This document shows positions 2,010-16,277 of a stretch of 64,000 bases of DNA, one piece after another (position 1 is the first letter of the stretch; each line of letters opens with the position of its first letter). The notes under the pieces were generated by a model, which saw only the letters and a list, made by a program, of their open reading frames with translations, made no database searches and had not been told where the DNA came from. The DNA lies in contig NZ_JANQTA010000002.1 of NCBI RefSeq assembly GCF_028278985.1, forward strand, positions 62,001 through 126,000. The letters are read 5' to 3'. Position numbers and translations under genes: made by a program. Source of the DNA: Candidatus Nitrosopumilus sp. (GTDB taxonomy: Archaea > Thermoproteota > Nitrososphaeria > Nitrososphaerales > Nitrosopumilaceae).

Positions 2010-2465
2010 ATGGCTGAAATTACACAGGAAATTTTGATGTTATTAGGAGTCATCATTAGTGCAGGAGGAATTTCAGGGGCAATTTTTTACAATGCTTTAA
2101 AGCTGAAACAAAACACAAAATCACAATACTATCAGATTCTGAAAGATATTGATGAACGACATCATCAAATTGAAGAGTATTATGATGATCCTCATAAACA
2201 ACTAATGCATAGAGTGAATTTTGGTCAATTCATGAAACAATTAATTGATATGAAAATCATTCCAAAAAAATTTTTGATTCAAACATACAAATATGATTTT
2301 TCTGATGCATTGTGGATCCTGAATAGAATGGAAGAAAGGCACAGAAATGAACCCGATAGTATTGAATTTGTGAAATTTTGTGATGAAAATAACATTATAG
2401 AATCCGAACCAGATAAACAACTACAAGACATTATGTACAACATCAACAAAAATAATCAAAAATAG
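2010..2465 (+). CDS. Small membrane-anchored hypothetical protein
   Basis: N-terminal TM helix (ILMLLGVIISAGGISGAIFYNAL) then soluble helical domain; starts 12 bp after the ATPase ends. Confidence 0.7.
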   Translation: MAEITQEILMLLGVIISAGGISGAIFYNALKLKQNTKSQYYQILKDIDERHHQIEEYYDDPHKQLMHRVNFGQFMKQLIDMKIIPKKFLIQTYKYDFSDALWILNRMEERHRNEPDSIEFVKFCDENNIIESEPDKQLQDIMYNINKNNQK

Positions 2466-2836
2466 GTTCTGACCATATCAAGGAATAACTATCATTTCTT
2501 TGGAACCCATAAATTACATCATGAAAGTAATAGAATTTTCATAAATTGGTTCTACTTACTGCTAGAGGGATTTTATGATTGTTATAGATAATATGACAGT
2601 TATTTGATTATAACAAGAGTGTAGGAGGGATTAACCTCCAAGATTCATACACCCTGAGACTTGCAATAACAAGACCAGAAATCCTGAAATGCCTGTCAAT
2701 GGATACCCGACCACATGTTTTTTATTTTGTTGTATGAGTTTCCACATAATTTGTAAAAAGTCAAATTAACTATATGAGATTTTTGGTAAAACAGTTTCTA
2801 AGGAAATACATTGATCAAAGAAATGAAAATGTTTCA

Positions 2837-3181
2837 TTAATCTTTGATTGAATCCTTGATACTTTTCAGAATATCGTTTTTTGGTTTCTCTTCTTTCTCC
2901 TGATCAGATAATTCTTCTAGTGCAATTGCTGTAAGTTTTGTTTTTCTATCCTTATTCAAATCTAAAATACTGACTTCCTTTTCAGATTCTCTCAGCGTAT
3001 TTGATAGTGGATTATCAGGAGATTCGGGTTCTTCGGGTTCAAAGACAATATCAAAATCAATGTAGGACCAATACTTCCTCCATGAACGAGGCAACTGTTC
3101 AATTATTTCCGGATCACAGGAGTAATTTAACAATCCATCTTCTCTAACAGGCATTCCTAATGGAAATTTGATGTGAATCAT
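2837..3181 (-). CDS. Hypothetical protein
   Basis: ORF whose start overlaps the stop of the upstream minus ORF by 1 nt (TAATG). Confidence 0.55.
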   Translation of the reverse strand: MIHIKFPLGMPVREDGLLNYSCDPEIIEQLPRSWRKYWSYIDFDIVFEPEEPESPDNPLSNTLRESEKEVSILDLNKDRKTKLTAIALEELSDQEKEEKPKNDILKSIKDSIKD

Positions 3182-3456
3182 TATGCAGAGACAGTTGGTT
3201 CTAACCTTTCAACATAGGAATCTAGTTCATTTTCAGTTATCGAATATTTGGATTGACTCTTTAATGCACATTTTACACAATAAAATCCACGTACACAATT
3301 TTTGCTTATGGACAAGAACACATGAACATCTTTCCAAAAACTATTGGATAGTGGGATAGTACACACATCACAAATTGCTGAACCTCTGCATTTTGTTGTC
3401 AATCCTATAGGACCAGATTTTTTACTCATGTGAATCCCCTGATGAATAATTTTCAT
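3181..3456 (-). CDS. Small cysteine-rich (zinc-binding?) protein
   Basis: CDVC and CVKC pairs; in-frame M at MSKKSG likely the true start. Confidence 0.55.
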   Translation of the reverse strand: MKIIHQGIHMSKKSGPIGLTTKCRGSAICDVCTIPLSNSFWKDVHVFLSISKNCVRGFYCVKCALKSQSKYSITENELDSYVERLEPTVSA

Positions 3457-4435: not shown

Positions 4436-4456
4436 AGTTGGTATTTTTAAGACGTT
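4436..4456. repeat. 21-bp direct repeat copy 1 (agttggtatttttaagacgtt)
   Basis: Exact match to 5266..5286. Confidence 0.85.
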
Positions 4457-4472
4457 GAACGTAAATTAAAAA

Positions 4473-4519
4473 AAGAAAGAGAGATGAAGAAACAATAGAA
4501 TATTTTTTCTCTCTTTCTT
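4473..4519. repeat. Inverted repeat, 12-bp perfect arms (aagaaagagaga/tctctctttctt)
   Basis: Arms 4473-4484 and 4508-4519, 23-nt loop. Confidence 0.75.
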
Positions 4520-4647
4520 ACTTGCACAGTAGATACAAAAATAATTTGAATAGTGAATTATTAAATTCTTTATTTGAAAATTATTCTAAAAACATCAAAA
4601 ATAAAAATGTCCAAATGAAACGAAAAAGTGTGTTCTGTTTGTTCTAT

Positions 4648-4670
4648 TTTCTCAGAACTCCTCTGAGAAA
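4648..4670. repeat. Hairpin, 9-bp arms (tttctcaga-actcc-tctgagaaa)
   Basis: Arms 4648-4656 and 4662-4670, 5-nt loop. Confidence 0.7.
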
Positions 4671-4747
4671 TATGAAAAAACAAAATCAAAACTGAATAAT
4701 AAAAAAGTCTTGGAAATAAATAGAACATAATATTCTCCTATTCTGGA

Positions 4748-4761
4748 TAGTATACATACTA
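4748..4761. promoter_or_regulatory. Palindromic operator-like site 1 (TAGTAT-AC-ATACTA)
   Basis: Perfect 6-bp arms around AC. Confidence 0.5.
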
Positions 4762-4780
4762 CGAATATAGGTAATATTAG

Positions 4781-4796
4781 ATAGTATAGATACTAT
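4781..4796. promoter_or_regulatory. Palindromic operator-like site 2 (ATAGTAT-AG-ATACTAT)
   Basis: Perfect 7-bp arms around AG; same core as site 1. Confidence 0.5.
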
Positions 4797-4852
4797 AATC
4801 GCTGATATAATGTGTGTTTTGTACGATATTCATAATAGTTATAAACAACTAT

Positions 4853-4872
4853 GTCACTATACATATAGTGAC
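4853..4872. promoter_or_regulatory. Palindromic operator-like site 3 (GTCACTATA-CA-TATAGTGAC)
   Basis: Perfect 9-bp arms with 2-nt spacer. Confidence 0.5.
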
Positions 4873-4962
4873 GTTGAAACATACCATAAACTTTGAAAAC
4901 AAAGACATGAAGTCTTACTGTCAAAGTGGTAGCCAAGTTTCTGAGGAGGACATCACAAATAA

Positions 4963-5250
4963 TTTGTTCTGTTCGGTACTTGGAGGTTTTGGATTCTGAG
5001 AGCTCCTGCAAATTATACTTTAAAGATTAAAACTTTACAAGATTTCAATAATGTTGTTCCAAGATTATTAAGAAGTAAGACTGTTGAAATCTTAGAAGAA
5101 TTATTTACAGAGTTTGTAAATTCCCAACCTAAAAACAAATCATTTGATGATTTAATTAAATTATTTATAGAAAAAAATCTGAGAGGGTCCAAATCCTCTC
5201 AGACTATGCTAAAAGAAACGTCCAAGCCAACCAAGAAGGGAGGTTTCTGA
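4963..5250 (+). pseudogene. 95-codon open frame lacking ATG/GTG/TTG near its N-terminus; possible frameshifted remnant
   Basis: Stop-free from 4963 to TGA 5248-5250, reading ...ILRAPANYTLKIKTLQDFNNVVPRLLRSKTVEILEELFTEFVNSQPKNKSFDDLIKLFIEKNL...; overlaps the C-terminus of ORF 4814..4999 in another frame. Confidence 0.4.
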
Positions 5251-5265
5251 TACTGATCAATAGAC

Positions 5266-5286
5266 AGTTGGTATTTTTAAGACGTT
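5266..5286. repeat. 21-bp direct repeat copy 2
   Basis: Exact match to 4436..4456; covers the TTG start of ORF 5268. Confidence 0.85.
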
Positions 5287-5510
5287 ACGAGGGATTACAA
5301 TGTTGTGAGTGCCATTGGAATCAAATGTATGCAAATAGAAAATTAAAGATCTTCAAAGATATGAATTCCTTTAGTAACCATCTTACTAAATCCCATACAT
5401 TAACTGAAGAAAGAAAGAAGAAAATCAAAACTATAGCAAAAGCATATCTAAAATCTGATAAAAAGAAGTCTTTCATTGAATTATGTTATGAAAAGGGGGT
5501 AATTTTTTGA
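5268..5510 (+). CDS. Small C2H2-like zinc finger protein
   Basis: CCEC...FSNHLTKSH (C-x2-C...H-x4-H); stop overlaps next start. Confidence 0.6.
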   Translation: MVFLRRYEGLQCCECHWNQMYANRKLKIFKDMNSFSNHLTKSHTLTEERKKKIKTIAKAYLKSDKKKSFIELCYEKGVIF

Positions 5511-5761: not shown

Positions 5762-7593
5762 CAATCACTAACTGTAAAGAATGCCTATCTGGGAGGTATG
5801 AGAATTGTAAAAATCCTAAGAATTGTCCATTGGGTAAAGAATACAATTCAAAGAACAGCCCTATTGAATCCAAACTAGTAGATACAACTGGAAAGAAAAC
5901 ATTCTACCTATCAAAATTCTGTCCTTGGGAAGAAATAGACATGTCTTTAGAGGAATTCAAAGAAGAGTGTGAAAGTTTAGATCCTTTCATTGGTGGACTA
6001 CGAATAACTGAGTTTCTTGCTGTTAACAGACAAGTAATTGATAAAAAGAAAATTGCAAAGGAAATCAAATCATGGTCTGACTTCAAAGGCTATGAATTTG
6101 AAATAAAAGACATTGAGAAAATTATCAATGCTGTTTGGGAGGATAATGATAGTTTCAATGCAATAAAGGAAACTGCATTCAAGATGGGATTAGAAAAGAA
6201 AGAGATTCTTTTGGAACGAGATCAATTCATCGAAGTTTCTGAATGGATTAAAGGAAGATACCACATTAAACGTGTGGAATTAACTGGAGAGTTATTATTC
6301 TTCAATGATCAGTATTATGACAATGATGCTGAACAGTTAATCAGAAGAACTGCAAGAAAGTGTATTTCTAAATCAAAGAACGTTGACATGAATGAAGTTG
6401 TAAATTACATTAAGGATTCATGTAAGATAATTAAAAGTGATGACATTGAAAAATATGTTCATCTAAAATGTTTGCTCAATGGAACTTTTAACATCATCAA
6501 GGGGACCTTTGAAGAAAGTTTCAGTCCTGAAAACATCATTCTAAATCAGATACCTCACAACTTTGTAAAGAAAGGAAAACATTCTACAATTGAAAAGAGA
6601 GTAAAAGAAATAGCTCCTGATGACAAAGACAGACAATCATATTTTGATTTTGGCTCAACCTGTTTACATCCGTATACTGGAATAGATATCCAATTGGGAG
6701 AGGTTGGAATTCCAGGAACGGGTAAAACCCAGTTGATTACATTACTTCAATATGTTTTAGGTTCTGACAATGTAACAAATGCAACAACTCATAGTATAGC
6801 TAAAGATGAAACGACTCAGAAAGATGTAGCTTACTCTTTTCTAAACATTGATGAAGAATTAAGAAGTGATGACGTAAGAAACATTGAAACTTTGAAAAAG
6901 TGGATTACTCAAGGAAGATTTACAGCTAGAAGCATTTATGGGCATAACACAAACTTCAGGCCAACATCAAGACTCATGTTTGCAACAAACACAATTTATG
7001 AAATAACAAATCCTGAAGATGCTTTAGCAATGTATGAAAGAACTCATTTAATCAAACTCACTCAAAAATTCAGACATACAAAGAAAGAAATCAAAAACGT
7101 ATTTGAAAACATCAAGGAAAAAGAATTTGATTCATTTATCTCATATCTTCTAAAAAATGCAACAAAAATTTACAAAAACAAATCCATCAAGTATCCACAG
7201 ACAACAGAGCAGACAGAATCATTATGGAATGAATTTGGAAATCAAGTAAGAGCATTCATTGATGAATGGATTGAAAAGGATATTTCATTCAAAGAAGAGG
7301 CTTCAAAAATTTGGGAAAAATTCTTCAATGAATCTAGCATGAGAGGAGTCAAGCCAAGAGGTAAAAATCAATTCTATGACAAGTTTAATGAGATCATAGG
7401 AAACACTTCAACCAAAATCAGAGAGGATGACATTACATTCTATGGTTATCCTGGAATTAGACTAAAGACAGTTGATGAGAAAGAAAACCAAGAAAGAATT
7501 GATCAGACTCCAAAGGGTAGGGTTCTCAAGAAACTTAATCACCTTGATGAATCAGACCCCATCTTCAAAGAAATAAGGAAGTTGATTGCTTGA
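5725..7593 (+). CDS. SF3/D5-like helicase-primase family protein of a mobile element
   Basis: Walker A GIPGTGKT, Walker B-like LNIDEEL, MFATN motif (SF3-like); N-terminal Cys cluster CKECLSGRYENCKNPKNC. A TTG at 5755 is an alternative start. Confidence 0.75.
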   Translation: MSLTPREDRQLVAITNCKECLSGRYENCKNPKNCPLGKEYNSKNSPIESKLVDTTGKKTFYLSKFCPWEEIDMSLEEFKEECESLDPFIGGLRITEFLAVNRQVIDKKKIAKEIKSWSDFKGYEFEIKDIEKIINAVWEDNDSFNAIKETAFKMGLEKKEILLERDQFIEVSEWIKGRYHIKRVELTGELLFFNDQYYDNDAEQLIRRTARKCISKSKNVDMNEVVNYIKDSCKIIKSDDIEKYVHLKCLLNGTFNIIKGTFEESFSPENIILNQIPHNFVKKGKHSTIEKRVKEIAPDDKDRQSYFDFGSTCLHPYTGIDIQLGEVGIPGTGKTQLITLLQYVLGSDNVTNATTHSIAKDETTQKDVAYSFLNIDEELRSDDVRNIETLKKWITQGRFTARSIYGHNTNFRPTSRLMFATNTIYEITNPEDALAMYERTHLIKLTQKFRHTKKEIKNVFENIKEKEFDSFISYLLKNATKIYKNKSIKYPQTTEQTESLWNEFGNQVRAFIDEWIEKDISFKEEASKIWEKFFNESSMRGVKPRGKNQFYDKFNEIIGNTSTKIREDDITFYGYPGIRLKTVDEKENQERIDQTPKGRVLKKLNHLDESDPIFKEIRKLIA

Positions 7594-7730
7594 TTGAAAC
7601 TAGGTCTCATTGCTGCAACGCCAAAATAACATTACTTCCAGCCTGTTCTCAATGTGGAAATAGAGTGACAGGATGGAGGGAGATTCCCAAATTACACCAT
7701 TCTCAAAAGACCTTGGAGGAATACCAATGA
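7590..7730 (+). CDS. Small zinc-ribbon-like protein (46 aa), absent from ORF track
   Basis: TTG at 7590 overlaps the helicase stop; reads MIETRSHCCNAKITLLPACSQCGNRVTGWREIPKLHHSQKTLEEYQ*, stop overlaps next ATG (ATGA at 7727). Confidence 0.5.
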   Translation: MIETRSHCCNAKITLLPACSQCGNRVTGWREIPKLHHSQKTLEEYQ

Positions 7731-8044
7731 AGAAGAATCAATGGATAATGCAAAAAAATCAGCATTCAGGGAGAATCAAGCAGTTCCTAAAGTTTAGCAA
7801 ATGTGAGACATTAGACGAGTTAACTAATCTCAACCCTGCCAAGATTGAATTGCTATTGAATGAGTATGTGGAGTCTCTTCAGGACAAAAACACAGAATGT
7901 ACTATCATTCAAAAAGTCGACAGTGTTGTAATGTTTTTTTCAGTTAATGAGATGTTCATCTTTAATGAGTTGACTTCTGAATATTTCAGAGATATGAAGT
8001 ATTATGAGAATGATGGAGATGAGGAGAACACTGAAGAATACTAA
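7727..8044 (+). CDS. Stand-alone tyrosine-recombinase core-binding-domain-like protein A
   Basis: MKKNQWIMQKNQHSGRIKQFLKFSKCETLDELTNLNPAKIELLLNEYVESL... resembles the integrase 8800..9984 N-terminal domain; no catalytic domain. The track starts it at 7673; the ATGA overlap favours 7727. Confidence 0.55.
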   Translation: MKKNQWIMQKNQHSGRIKQFLKFSKCETLDELTNLNPAKIELLLNEYVESLQDKNTECTIIQKVDSVVMFFSVNEMFIFNELTSEYFRDMKYYENDGDEENTEEY

Positions 8045-8252
8045 AGAAATCAGACAATTTGTTAATCACACCAATTACAAGTCTTTAGAGGAGATATTGG
8101 AGTTAGATGATTATCAACTGCGAGAAGTGTTAAGAGAGTATATTCTGTATGTCCGTAGAAAGTTCTCAGATGAGTCAGCAAGTGGGAAAATACATGCAAT
8201 ATTGAAAATTTGCAAAGAAAACAACATTTCTTTTGATGACGTACTGAAATAA
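8004..8252 (+). CDS. Stand-alone tyrosine-recombinase core-binding-domain-like protein B
   Basis: KEIRQFVNHTNYKSLEEILELDDYQLREVLREYILYVRRKF... resembles protein A and the integrase N-terminus; overlaps A in another frame; several in-frame ATGs (8004-8019). Confidence 0.55.
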   Translation: MRMMEMRRTLKNTKEIRQFVNHTNYKSLEEILELDDYQLREVLREYILYVRRKFSDESASGKIHAILKICKENNISFDDVLK

Positions 8253-8528
8253 CTCAGAACCCTCAATTATCGACAGGTCGACAATACTACTATATCGGAA
8301 TTAAAAACAAACGCATTCCCACGAGTATATAGTTTAAGGAATTCTATTACTCACGAAAGTTATAACTGGAGATATTTTGAACTAAAAAAATCATGACTAA
8401 ATTTCTCCAAATACAGATTGTTACATTAAACTGCATTAGAAGAAGTGAAGGATTTATCCTGATATTTGATGAAAAGAGTAGGAGCAATTCAATGAAATAC
8501 TTTAGTCAGTATAAAAAATAGTGGTTAT

Positions 8529-8768
8529 ATGAGCATGGATGATGAAATTACAGAGTTCTGGATTTCAAACAATTATGCTTTCAGATTCTTTACAAAACAC
8601 GAATTGGATGGTTTTTTATCATCATTAAATGATGAGAATGGAAATTTCCAAAAAGGAACAAACATTATGTTTAGACATGTTCAAATTAAGAATCCCATAT
8701 CAAAAACTCAATTGATTGACATGACTAATGAAGAAATGAAGTCATATTTGGAAATGATAGAGAGTTAG
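8529..8768 (+). CDS. Small hypothetical protein of the element
   Basis: 79-aa ORF between the operon and the integrase. Confidence 0.45.
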   Translation: MSMDDEITEFWISNNYAFRFFTKHELDGFLSSLNDENGNFQKGTNIMFRHVQIKNPISKTQLIDMTNEEMKSYLEMIES

Positions 8769-8799
8769 TAGAAGAAATTATCAAACGCTGTAGAATTTC

Positions 8800-9984
8800 T
8801 TAGAAACCCACATCATCTTTTATTTTTTCAGACTGTTTTCTGTTGGAATCTAGTTGTTCTTTGAGAGATTTGTCTGAATTACTAGGGTCTTTTAGTTCCT
8901 TTAGTATCTCTTCTTTGATTCTCTTTGCATATTCATGCTCTTTTTCAGCCCGTTCTTTCTCCCATTCTGATTTTTCCTTGTTGAGGTTCTCAATTTCCTT
9001 TTTGTTTGATTCGATCTCTTGTCTTTGTCTGTCCTCATTGGAAATAGTCAAATCAAGTATTGCTTTTTTGTATTCTTCAAACAAAGCCTCGTCTGAAAAT
9101 GGAGCATAGTGATTATCCAATGGAATCGTAACAGAATGTCCCATTAATTTTTCACAGATTGAAAGATTAGCGTTTGCTCTTGACTTTAATGTAATGTTGA
9201 AGTATTTTCTTAGGCCATGAAGTGTTGGAATGTTGAATCTATTTCCTGTTTTTGTTTTTTGAACATCTTTTAGAGTAATTGTCAATGCATTTCTTACAGT
9301 TCCCTGCAACATTGTTTCTGCCGGAGCAGATCCTATCACGTAATCTTTTCTAAATGCAGGGGACTCTGGAGTCAATCTTTCATTGTCTTGTTGCCTTTCA
9401 TCAAGATAATCATCAAATGCTTTAGAAGATTCAGGAGTCATGAAAGTAACGTACTCTTCTTTATCGCCAGCATAACAAACAACTTTCTTACAGTCATCAA
9501 TGTTTGTAATGTGTCCTAGCTTTAACTCTGGAATCACCCCAACACGACATCCAGTAGATGAGAGAAACAAAATCAATGCCCTTGTTCTCTTCTTTTTTGT
9601 TGCTAGAAGCATTTTTTGAATATCTTCTCTCTTGTAAGTTCCGTATCCTCCTTTCTTTGTTCTAGTTGGAAACATTTTGTGAAGGCGTTTTGTATTGAGA
9701 TTTACATCATTCATGGTATAGAACAACTCTACAGGTTGCATGATCGATGGAATGTAGTTAGGAGAAAAGTTGTCTTTTAGATAGATTAGATAGTCCTCCA
9801 AATTTCTTTGAAGGGTTTTTTCATCTGCTTTGAGCAAATCATCATAATCATGGGTCTTATTCCATTCCATAAAGCGGTCTAGTTGGTACTTGTAGTTCTC
9901 TCTGGTAACAGGGGAGCCTAGGGCCTGAAGAAACATCACTAAACATCGTTTTTGAGCCATGTTTTGGGAGGATCTCTTTTTCAT
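8800..9984 (-). CDS. Tyrosine recombinase / integrase
   Basis: Catalytic-type motifs: TGCRVGV (R), HGLRKYF (HxxR), LMGHS, NHYAPF (Y); C-terminal coiled coil. Confidence 0.85.
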   Translation of the reverse strand: MKKRSSQNMAQKRCLVMFLQALGSPVTRENYKYQLDRFMEWNKTHDYDDLLKADEKTLQRNLEDYLIYLKDNFSPNYIPSIMQPVELFYTMNDVNLNTKRLHKMFPTRTKKGGYGTYKREDIQKMLLATKKKRTRALILFLSSTGCRVGVIPELKLGHITNIDDCKKVVCYAGDKEEYVTFMTPESSKAFDDYLDERQQDNERLTPESPAFRKDYVIGSAPAETMLQGTVRNALTITLKDVQKTKTGNRFNIPTLHGLRKYFNITLKSRANANLSICEKLMGHSVTIPLDNHYAPFSDEALFEEYKKAILDLTISNEDRQRQEIESNKKEIENLNKEKSEWEKERAEKEHEYAKRIKEEILKELKDPSNSDKSLKEQLDSNRKQSEKIKDDVGF

Positions 9985-10042
9985 ATAAGTAGGGCTTCCT
10001 TGAATTATACAAGAATATAAGTAGGCAAATTAGCTTATTTTC

Positions 10043-10330
10043 ATGCCACTTAAGCGTGCAAGTAGAGGTCGTACAAAAGGAGGAAAAGGATCATCAGGTG
10101 TTGTACAATGTACAAACTGCGGTCAAACAGTTCCTAAAGACAAAGCAAAGAAAGTTACATCAAGACTAAATCTTGTTGAGCATACCTTAGCAAAAGAACT
10201 ACGTGCACAAGGAGCATACATTGCATCACCTACAGTTCTAAAATGGTACTGTATTTCCTGTGCAATTCACTTTAAGATTCTAAAAATTAGATCTGCAGAT
10301 AACAGAAGAAAACGTGGAAAACTACGATAG
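10043..10330 (+). CDS. rps26e: Ribosomal protein S26e
   Basis: MPLKRASRGRTKGGKGSSGVVQCTNCG... typical of S26e with CTNCG and CISC. Confidence 0.9.
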   Translation: MPLKRASRGRTKGGKGSSGVVQCTNCGQTVPKDKAKKVTSRLNLVEHTLAKELRAQGAYIASPTVLKWYCISCAIHFKILKIRSADNRRKRGKLR

Positions 10331-14461: not shown

Positions 14462-14548
14462 GAATGCAAAAATCCAAAAATTCTACTTAAGGAACAAGCA
14501 GAAATTATCAGTATAATTTCTCTGTGTCATGAAAGTAAATTACAGAAA

Positions 14549-14683
14549 TTAAAATTCAAACTTTGGCTTAGAGGATAATTGTTTTTTCCAGTTTTCTAAT
14601 GCAGATCTGAGTTCTTCTTGTACTTGAGAATATTCATTCTCAAGTATATCATCAGAATTCAGATTCTGCATTGGTAGGCTCAT
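14549..14683 (-). CDS. Small hypothetical protein (44 aa), absent from ORF track
   Basis: ATG at 14683: MSLPMQNLNSDDILENEYSQVQEELRSALENWKKQLSSKPKFEF*. Confidence 0.4.
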   Translation of the reverse strand: MSLPMQNLNSDDILENEYSQVQEELRSALENWKKQLSSKPKFEF

Positions 14684-14752
14684 TACCAATAATTGGAAAA
14701 AAGACCATAAATCAACTAGTTTGTTATTGAAATAACATAATATCTCACAAGC

Positions 14753-15082
14753 TTACTGCTTACCACGTAACGTGATTACAGAGCGTAAAATTAAACCTGA
14801 AATTCCTAAATTACTTGTAAGAAATTCTACGGCTCTAGTAAGAGAATTTTCTCCTCTAAAACCTTCATCATAAATCATTTCGACTGAACCTAAATCAGTT
14901 TGAACAAAAGAAGTTATCAAAGAATAAACACCTAATTTTTCATCTGTTTTTTCATTATACAATCTTAATTCAACTTTAGTAACTGTAAATTCATCTTGAA
15001 CAAATTTTCCAGATAGTAATTCCTTAACTTCATCTGGAGTTTTAGATACTCGTGAAGGGTCATGCAAATCAACAATATCCAT
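14753..15082 (-). CDS. Hypothetical protein
   Basis: Intact ORF in the intergenic region. Confidence 0.6.
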   Translation of the reverse strand: MDIVDLHDPSRVSKTPDEVKELLSGKFVQDEFTVTKVELRLYNEKTDEKLGVYSLITSFVQTDLGSVEMIYDEGFRGENSLTRAVEFLTSNLGISGLILRSVITLRGKQ

Positions 15083-15182
15083 TGAAAATTAGATTACATG
15101 ATTAGTACATAAATGATAATTATTGAAAACTCGTAGAGAATTGCGTAAGTGTTAATTACGACAGAAATTTATTTTTGTTAAA

Positions 15183-16277
15183 TTGGATCATCACAAATTT
15201 CATGGTAAAGACATCCCACACATCAAACTAGATCCAAAAATGACCATAGAGCAACTTGTAGATGTTTATGCAAGTTCTGGATTTAATGGAAGACAACTTG
15301 GGGAAGCTGCAAAGCTCTATGCCAAGATGATTAAAGAAAACGCAACTATTTGTCTAACGGTTTCAGGGGCAATGACTCCGGTAGGATTTGGAGGCATCAT
15401 TAAAACTTTAATCGAAAGAGGTTTTGTTGATTGGATAATTACAACAGGGGCTAATGTTTATCACGAAGATCATTTTGCTTGGGGTTTACCAGTAAAACAA
15501 GGTCACTTTGATGTTGACGATATGAAATTGTACGAAAATGAAATTGTTAGAATTAGAGACGTTTACATTAAATTTTATGAAACTTTAGAAGCCCAGGACC
15601 AAGTTGTTCAGAAGATGTTTGGAAAAGAATTTCCAGATGAACCATTTACAACAGCAGAATTTTGCAATTTGATGGGAAAATTAAGTAAAGAAAATTCTAA
15701 ACATCCAGAAAAAAGTTTTGTAACTACCGCATACGAATATGATGTTCCAGTTTACATTTCTACAATCAAAGACTCATCACTGGCACTAAATCTTGCAGTA
15801 CATAGACTAGCAGGTAAAAATTACAATCTAGACTTTGTTAGGGAAATTATAGAGCAAGCTGCAATTCTTTATGATTCAAAAAAATCAGGAATTTTAGAAC
15901 TTGGTGGCGGAGTTCCAAAAAACACGGCTCAGCAAACGGGTCCACTTCTTGATCAAATTCTAAGACGAGATGATGGAGGACAAGATTACATCATTCAGAT
16001 TACAGATGCTCGTCCAGATACTGGAGGATTATCCGGAGCTACATTGCAAGAAGGAAAAAGTTGGGGAAAAGTTCAGAATTCACATGAAGGAGTAGTTACA
16101 GTTTATGCAGATGCAACAATTGCATTTCCAATATTAGCTTTGTATGCTCTTAGCAATCAAAAACCTAGAAAACCAAAAAGACTGTACAAAAAATTAGGAA
16201 AATTATATGATAAATTAAGTAAAGATTATTCGAAAAACCCCAGTATCAAAACAAAGAAATCAAAAAAGAAAAACTAA
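15183..16277 (+). CDS. dys: Deoxyhypusine synthase family protein
   Basis: GAMTPVGFGGIIKTLIERGFVDWIITTGANVYHEDHF and DARPDTGGLSGATLQEGKSWGKV. Confidence 0.85.
   Translation: MDHHKFHGKDIPHIKLDPKMTIEQLVDVYASSGFNGRQLGEAAKLYAKMIKENATICLTVSGAMTPVGFGGIIKTLIERGFVDWIITTGANVYHEDHFAWGLPVKQGHFDVDDMKLYENEIVRIRDVYIKFYETLEAQDQVVQKMFGKEFPDEPFTTAEFCNLMGKLSKENSKHPEKSFVTTAYEYDVPVYISTIKDSSLALNLAVHRLAGKNYNLDFVREIIEQAAILYDSKKSGILELGGGVPKNTAQQTGPLLDQILRRDDGGQDYIIQITDARPDTGGLSGATLQEGKSWGKVQNSHEGVVTVYADATIAFPILALYALSNQKPRKPKRLYKKLGKLYDKLSKDYSKNPSIKTKKSKKKN

Follow-up and report, generated by a model that had tools for sequence, protein, structure and literature searches.

An integrated element in the genome of an ammonia-oxidising thaumarchaeon encodes two small proteins, A and B, which are homologous to the core-binding domain (CBD) of tyrosine integrases, have no catalytic domain and lie in one operon with an SF3 replication helicase. 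The reading tentatively favoured here is that an integrase CBD has been recruited to serve this SF3-helicase operon as an accessory or regulatory protein.

Integrated Element and Its Target Site

The window, meaning the whole 64-kb stretch of DNA that was analysed, belongs to a thaumarchaeal genome of 1.69 Mb. In congeneric genomes the site is empty, and the left flank, on the side of a kinase gene, runs directly into the gene for ribosomal protein S26e; at this position the window genome has 11.5 kb inserted. Comparison with the empty sites identified the join of the element as a 10-bp att core, CAAGAATATA, and mapped the ends of the element to -1511 and 10009/10010. The element's resident integrase is intact. 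The core lies between two divergent host genes, just 5' of S26e (Table 1). Thaumarchaeal elements usually have short att sites and target intergenic DNA (PMC6563490). Because the att sites map elsewhere, A and B are interior genes and not pieces of the Int(N) type cut off by an att site.

The insertion site (10003-10019; G000:C3:60482-60498) falls within a TATA-like stretch, which reads CAAGAATATAAGTAGG in the relatives with an empty site, and ATATAAGTAGG is found again at 9983-9993, within the end of the element. The sequence upstream of the S26e promoter may have been exchanged by the insertion.

Table 1. Features of the integrated element and its flank (window coordinates).
Feature	Position	Strand	Basis or remark
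attL core, left copy	-1511..-1502, outside the window (G000:C3:60489-60498)		Empty-site comparison
Small C2H2-like protein, 5' of the helicase	5268..5510	+	Position; by-eye likeness to L216:1-276
SF3 (D5/P4-type) replication helicase, 622 aa	5725..7593	+	First long gene of the operon
Mini ORF, 46 aa	7590..7730	+	CC...CxxC zinc-ribbon-like spacing, read from the sequence
Protein A, 105 aa	7727..8044	+	Stand-alone integrase-type CBD without helix A; acidic C-terminal tail
Protein B, 82 aa	8004..8252	+	Second stand-alone CBD-like protein; CBD HMM 35.8 bits
79-aa ORF between B and the integrase	8529..8768	+
Resident tyrosine integrase, 394 aa	8800..9984	-	Complete CBD and catalytic domain; convergent with A/B
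attR core, CAAGAATATA	10010..10019	+	Empty-site comparison, congeneric genomes
Ribosomal protein S26e, host gene, integration target region	10043..10330	+	Pfam Ribosomal_S26e 3.7e-24

Helicase, mini ORF, A and B are linked by overlapping stop and start codons: the TTG start of the mini ORF overlaps the helicase stop, and its TGA overlaps the ATG of A (ATGA). The helicase matches Pfam D5_N (1.1e-6) and DUF5906 (4.6e-11), the P4 primase C-terminal model (1.2e-20) and PHROG primases (1e-22). For the mini ORF no NCBIfam family was matched and the PHROG match was non-significant, and the 79-aa ORF had no match in protein family models. The resident integrase has readable catalytic residues (R..HxxR..H..Y) and matches Pfam Phage_integrase (2.9e-9), XerA_Arch (4.9e-16) and the CBD model described below (137 bits).

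A largely non-coding region of ~830 bp (4436-5286) separates the left and right gene groups of the element. A perfect 21-nt direct repeat, AGTTGGTATTTTTAAGACGTT, for which 0 occurrences are expected by chance, flanks it with copies at 4436-4456 and 5266-5286, and the region contains two quasi-palindromes, GATAGTATA(C/G)ATACTA, at 4746 and 4780. It is a possible origin or control region. Further to the left, the element encodes an AAA_21/AAA_15 ATPase (232-1998; AriA, PtuA, mad3-like), likely of defence type, and directly 3' of it a 151-aa ORF with a hydrophobic N-terminus (2010-2465).

Homology of A and B to the Integrase Core-Binding Domain

The coordinates that the earlier note had assigned to both genes proved correct. 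A starts at ATG 7727, ~8 nt downstream of a strong GGAGG SD, and stops at 8042-8044; an alternative in-frame ATG at 7673 is possible, and homology with the orthologue described below begins at the 7727 start. B is in the +1 frame relative to A, and the two genes share 41 nt. Codon-usage statistics of both genes are near zero, unlike those of the long genes, the ORFs being short and AT-rich.

A CBD HMM was built from 25 thaumarchaeal integrases, with A and B left out. Among the 515 ORFs of the window, A scored 36.1 bits (E 2e-10) and B 35.8 bits (E 2.4e-10), while the next ORF reached 6.8 bits and the best of 2000 shuffles of each protein 11-12 bits. Both proteins independently match the same stretch of the model, positions 28-95 of 104, so that the first helix is absent. 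B stops where the CBD ends, and A continues for ~23 aa as its acidic tail. Single-sequence searches with A and B gave as top matches the N-terminal part of integrases of 370-430 aa (A 3.9e-5, B 1.2e-5). Pairwise BLASTP related A to the resident integrase with E = 0.007 and A to B with 2e-4, and no match was found between B and the resident integrase. The likeness to the N-terminus of the resident integrase that had been noted by eye is thus weak in pairwise comparison and strong against the profile of the integrase family. The claim of stand-alone CBD-like proteins in an element that bears an integrase was borne out by the profile statistics and, for A, by a stand-alone orthologue too.

As to membership of the tyrosine recombinases, A and B have the core-binding domain and lack the R-K-HxxR-H/W-Y catalytic domain; neither protein gave a catalytic-domain match, and no catalytic remnant was found on either strand of 7500-8800. 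Neither of them matched Pfam PF02899 or PF13495 (SAM-like integrase N-terminal); among 15 aligned CBDs, with E up to 1, these models were matched by 10/15 and 9/15, respectively. Nothing significant was found for A in Pfam, PHROGs or NCBIfam. B had a near-threshold, full-length match to Pfam Histone_HNS_N (22 bits, cut-off 24.5), which is probably a helical coincidence. The net charge of A and B is ordinary, and an apparent contrast with other CBDs vanished once all were trimmed to the same stretch.

AlphaFold2, run on the three window sequences, predicted A as helical (pLDDT 71 overall, 78-89 over the core) and B as all helical (pLDDT 80). In Foldseek searches against the PDB, the model of A had Cre and XerA among its matches at non-significant E-values of 0.8-9, and that of B had no recombinase match; against PDB and viral models together, nothing was significant for either. 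The CBD fold of A and B would accordingly be one backed by sequence and not by structure search.

An Orthologue of A in a Second Helicase Element

When 400 genomes were searched with a profile built from A and B, one sequence scored above every integrase, a 101-aa open frame, A', on contig C14 of G279 (L216; GenBank JADFLN010000106.1, MAG Thaumarchaeota B52T3L11). A and A' are 42% identical over 76 aa (E 4e-20), share the N-terminus KKNxWxMxKNxxSG and are collinear from the start codon, and A' is likewise without a catalytic domain. The differences between the two genes fall on the three codon positions as 46/32/59 of 90, third positions varying most (permutation p = 1e-4). A' lies directly 3' of an SF3 helicase and is also preceded by an overlapping short ORF; a small C2H2-like zinc-finger ORF precedes that helicase, as in the window element, and by eye it resembles the protein in the same place there. 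The convergent integrase of this contig is of a different clade from that of the window, and its CBD is hardly recognised by profile. Since the integrases of the two elements come from different clades, the constant partner of A is the helicase operon and not one integrase. The contig was also considered as a complete circular plasmid, which was rejected as it shows no terminal overlap.

Replication linkage of A is seen in two cases, A and A' each directly following an SF3 helicase, and these are the two elements with an A gene found in total. The search for the tandem beside other SF3 helicases, suggested previously, hence yielded A' in one more element and no counterpart of B there, nor was any other B orthologue found. 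No solo CBD occurred at 28 other SF3 loci, several of which lie on short contigs. Viral contigs, phage records and genome contigs queried with A, B, the helicase, the integrase and A' returned the A' contig only. The closest relative of the helicase (G214, 49% identity) is directly followed by a full integrase at the position of A/B.

Two other loci were recorded during the survey. A related element in G214 (L192, G214:C26:180001-198000) encodes an 853-aa replication protein with a long extra N-terminal region, which looks like a primase-polymerase joined to an SF3 helicase, together with two dissimilar integrases, both on the minus strand (8598-9602 and 14524-15660). In L151 (G065:C1:272200-278500; 2076-3349 minus), a 116-aa CBD-only ORF lies ~70 nt upstream of a 283-aa ORF that shows an HUH-like motif by eye (HFHLVCFG) and has no Pfam or PHROG match; it is possibly another solo CBD beside a replication protein.

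Relic or Gene

ORFs that encode a CBD alone occur commonly in Nitrosopumilaceae. Most are integrases that have been truncated, and share 33-93% identity with an intact counterpart. Among 70 CBDs compared, A (29%) and B (27%) are the two most diverged, with frames still open. In a CBD tree they do not group with the resident integrase, and, their branches being long, the tree gives no firm placement of one relative to the other; divergence and tree rule them out as recent copies of the resident integrase. Neutral decay was simulated from four real integrases down to 30% identity. None of the simulated sequences at <=30% identity (0/2400) was both open and >=35 bits, a result that assumes an ancestor like a sampled integrase and that an unsampled divergent ancestor would weaken for B.

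Elsewhere in the family, one host locus in two genomes (L193 in G160, L195 in G284) holds a CBD remnant that is open in one and interrupted by stops in the other, and is a decaying integrase scar. Across 38 contiguous Nitrosopumilaceae genomes, intact-looking CBD-only remnants seem commoner than catalytic-only ones, at ~5 loci against 0 (E < 1e-10). Partition of the SSV type was rejected as the source of CBD-only ORFs, there being no nearby catalytic-only partners in the complete genomes examined.

As A' is stand-alone, with substitutions concentrated at third codon positions, A is, judging from this comparison, a protein-coding gene kept as a stand-alone protein by selection. B is less certain than A, its status resting on divergence with an open frame. 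The earlier note had argued that the two genes are not simple decay, which is supported for A and likely for B. Its counter-case, namely that every homologue is a piece of a full integrase, does not hold for A in view of A' and does hold for many other CBD-only ORFs. A reading of A as a pseudogene is close to refuted.

Proposed Function and Rival Explanations

If an integrase CBD was indeed co-opted for the helicase operon, A and B would be CBDs freed from the catalytic domain and kept there as separate small proteins, B being a second, more diverged protein of A's kind. Both would be co-expressed with the helicase through the overlapping start and stop codons and may act as accessory or regulatory proteins in the replication stage of the element, for example by binding the origin or control region or the helicase and thereby setting initiation or copy number; the ~830-bp region is a putative target. 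They may have arisen from an integrase once 3' of the helicase that lost its catalytic half while the CBD was kept. The comparative clue from A' would point to the replication operon, away from the roles put forward in the earlier note, namely directionality factor, competitor for att sites or architectural protein. Against the favoured reading stand the count of only two elements with A, the 0/28 other SF3 loci, the full integrase in G214, the ordinary net charge of both proteins, the acidic tail of A, the near-zero codon-usage statistics, the lack of a significant recombinase match in Foldseek and the lack of a B orthologue.

The main rival, possible although on balance unlikely, is that A and B regulate the integrase, as competitors for core sites or in mixed non-cyclic assemblies, blocking re-integration or favouring excision. 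In Cre, helix A helps bridge neighbouring subunits. CBDs without this helix could, under such control, poison or steer synapsis. The CBD homology itself speaks for it, co-expression with the helicase would suit an "excised" programme, the N-terminal part of the SSV integrase multimerises and its isolated N-terminal half binds target DNA, and the small proteins Orf2 and Orf3 modulate IntSNJ2 (PMC8371274). Nevertheless, A' is paired with an integrase of another clade whose CBD is barely visible to the profile, the CBD of the resident integrase is no close relative of A and B, and characterised archaeal integrases run in both directions without directionality factors (PMC8371274). It is doubtful, though conceivable, that stand-alone CBD proteins in thaumarchaeal SF3-helicase operons form an undescribed family linking replication of the excised element to integration control; such a family could possibly act on integrases from more than one clade.

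It is improbable that the two genes are relics, left over from the N-terminal part of older integrases as in the truncated copies of related genomes. In favour of this reading, CBD-only ORFs are frequent in Nitrosopumilaceae and some visibly decay (G160/G284), a full integrase occupies the place of A/B in the closest relative of the helicase, and the codon-usage signal of A and B is weak. Against it, A' stands alone, aligns with A from the start codon onwards and is under selection; A and B have diverged much further than typical remnants, to a level that simulated neutral decay did not attain while keeping the frame open; and 7500-8800 holds no catalytic remnant near them. There is similarly little to recommend a single tandem double-CBD protein, whether a single-base frameshift has broken it in two or +1 frameshifting joins its parts: the +1 frame of B and its 41-nt overlap with A would allow it and RitA, with two sequential CB domains, is a precedent (PMC8138268), but A' ends without a B part and B has its own start codon. 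Chance resemblance is very improbable. By this account A and B would be small helical proteins of another family, B having an H-NS N-terminal-like domain, as its sub-threshold Histone_HNS_N match and the lack of a Foldseek recombinase match might suggest, whereas B scores 35.8 bits against CBDs with shuffles at <=12, and the same model stretch is matched by A and B independently.

Comparison with Known Systems and Implications

By profile, A and B resemble the CBD of archaeal tyrosine integrases (SAM-like; Pfam PF02899/PF13495) over helices B-C-D, and differ from it in lacking helix A and the catalytic domain, in being separate genes and in matching neither of these Pfam models. The N-terminal domain of XerA has been expressed and crystallised in isolation (PMC3646895). 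The Int(N) of the SSV-type "suicidal" integrases is likewise an N-terminal integrase piece with its own ORF, and some Int(N) pieces are transcribed (PMC8371274). Unlike Int(N), A and B are neither at an element end nor products of att partition; they coexist with an intact resident integrase, and an Int(C) partner is absent.

Examples of the reuse of recombinase domains are already known. In MrpR of phage SPbeta (PMC10516654), a tyrosine-recombinase fold has turned into a non-catalytic regulator within a mobile element, and RitA recombinases (PMC8138268) carry two CBDs in tandem, as do A and B taken together. MrpR, however, retains both domains, whereas A and B consist of nothing but the CBD and are encoded in a helicase operon; RitA combines its CBDs with a catalytic domain in a single protein, unlike the separate proteins A and B, which have no such domain. 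The IntSNJ2 helpers Orf2 and Orf3 of a haloarchaeal virus (PMC8371274) are also two small element-encoded proteins, as A and B are, that could modulate an integrase; there, Orf1 to Orf3 form one operon, whereas here the integrase is convergent to A/B. No precedent for a CBD gene that stands alone under selection within a helicase operon was met in the literature searched, of which coverage was partial.

A selected CBD gene free of the catalytic domain and tied to a replication operon marks a further route by which elements recycle their integrase. For annotation, caution is advised, since some "truncated integrases" are genes in their own right. Because the archaeal integrases that have been characterised reportedly do without a directionality factor, proteins of the A/B type would be testable candidates for how an archaeal element chooses between replication and integration.
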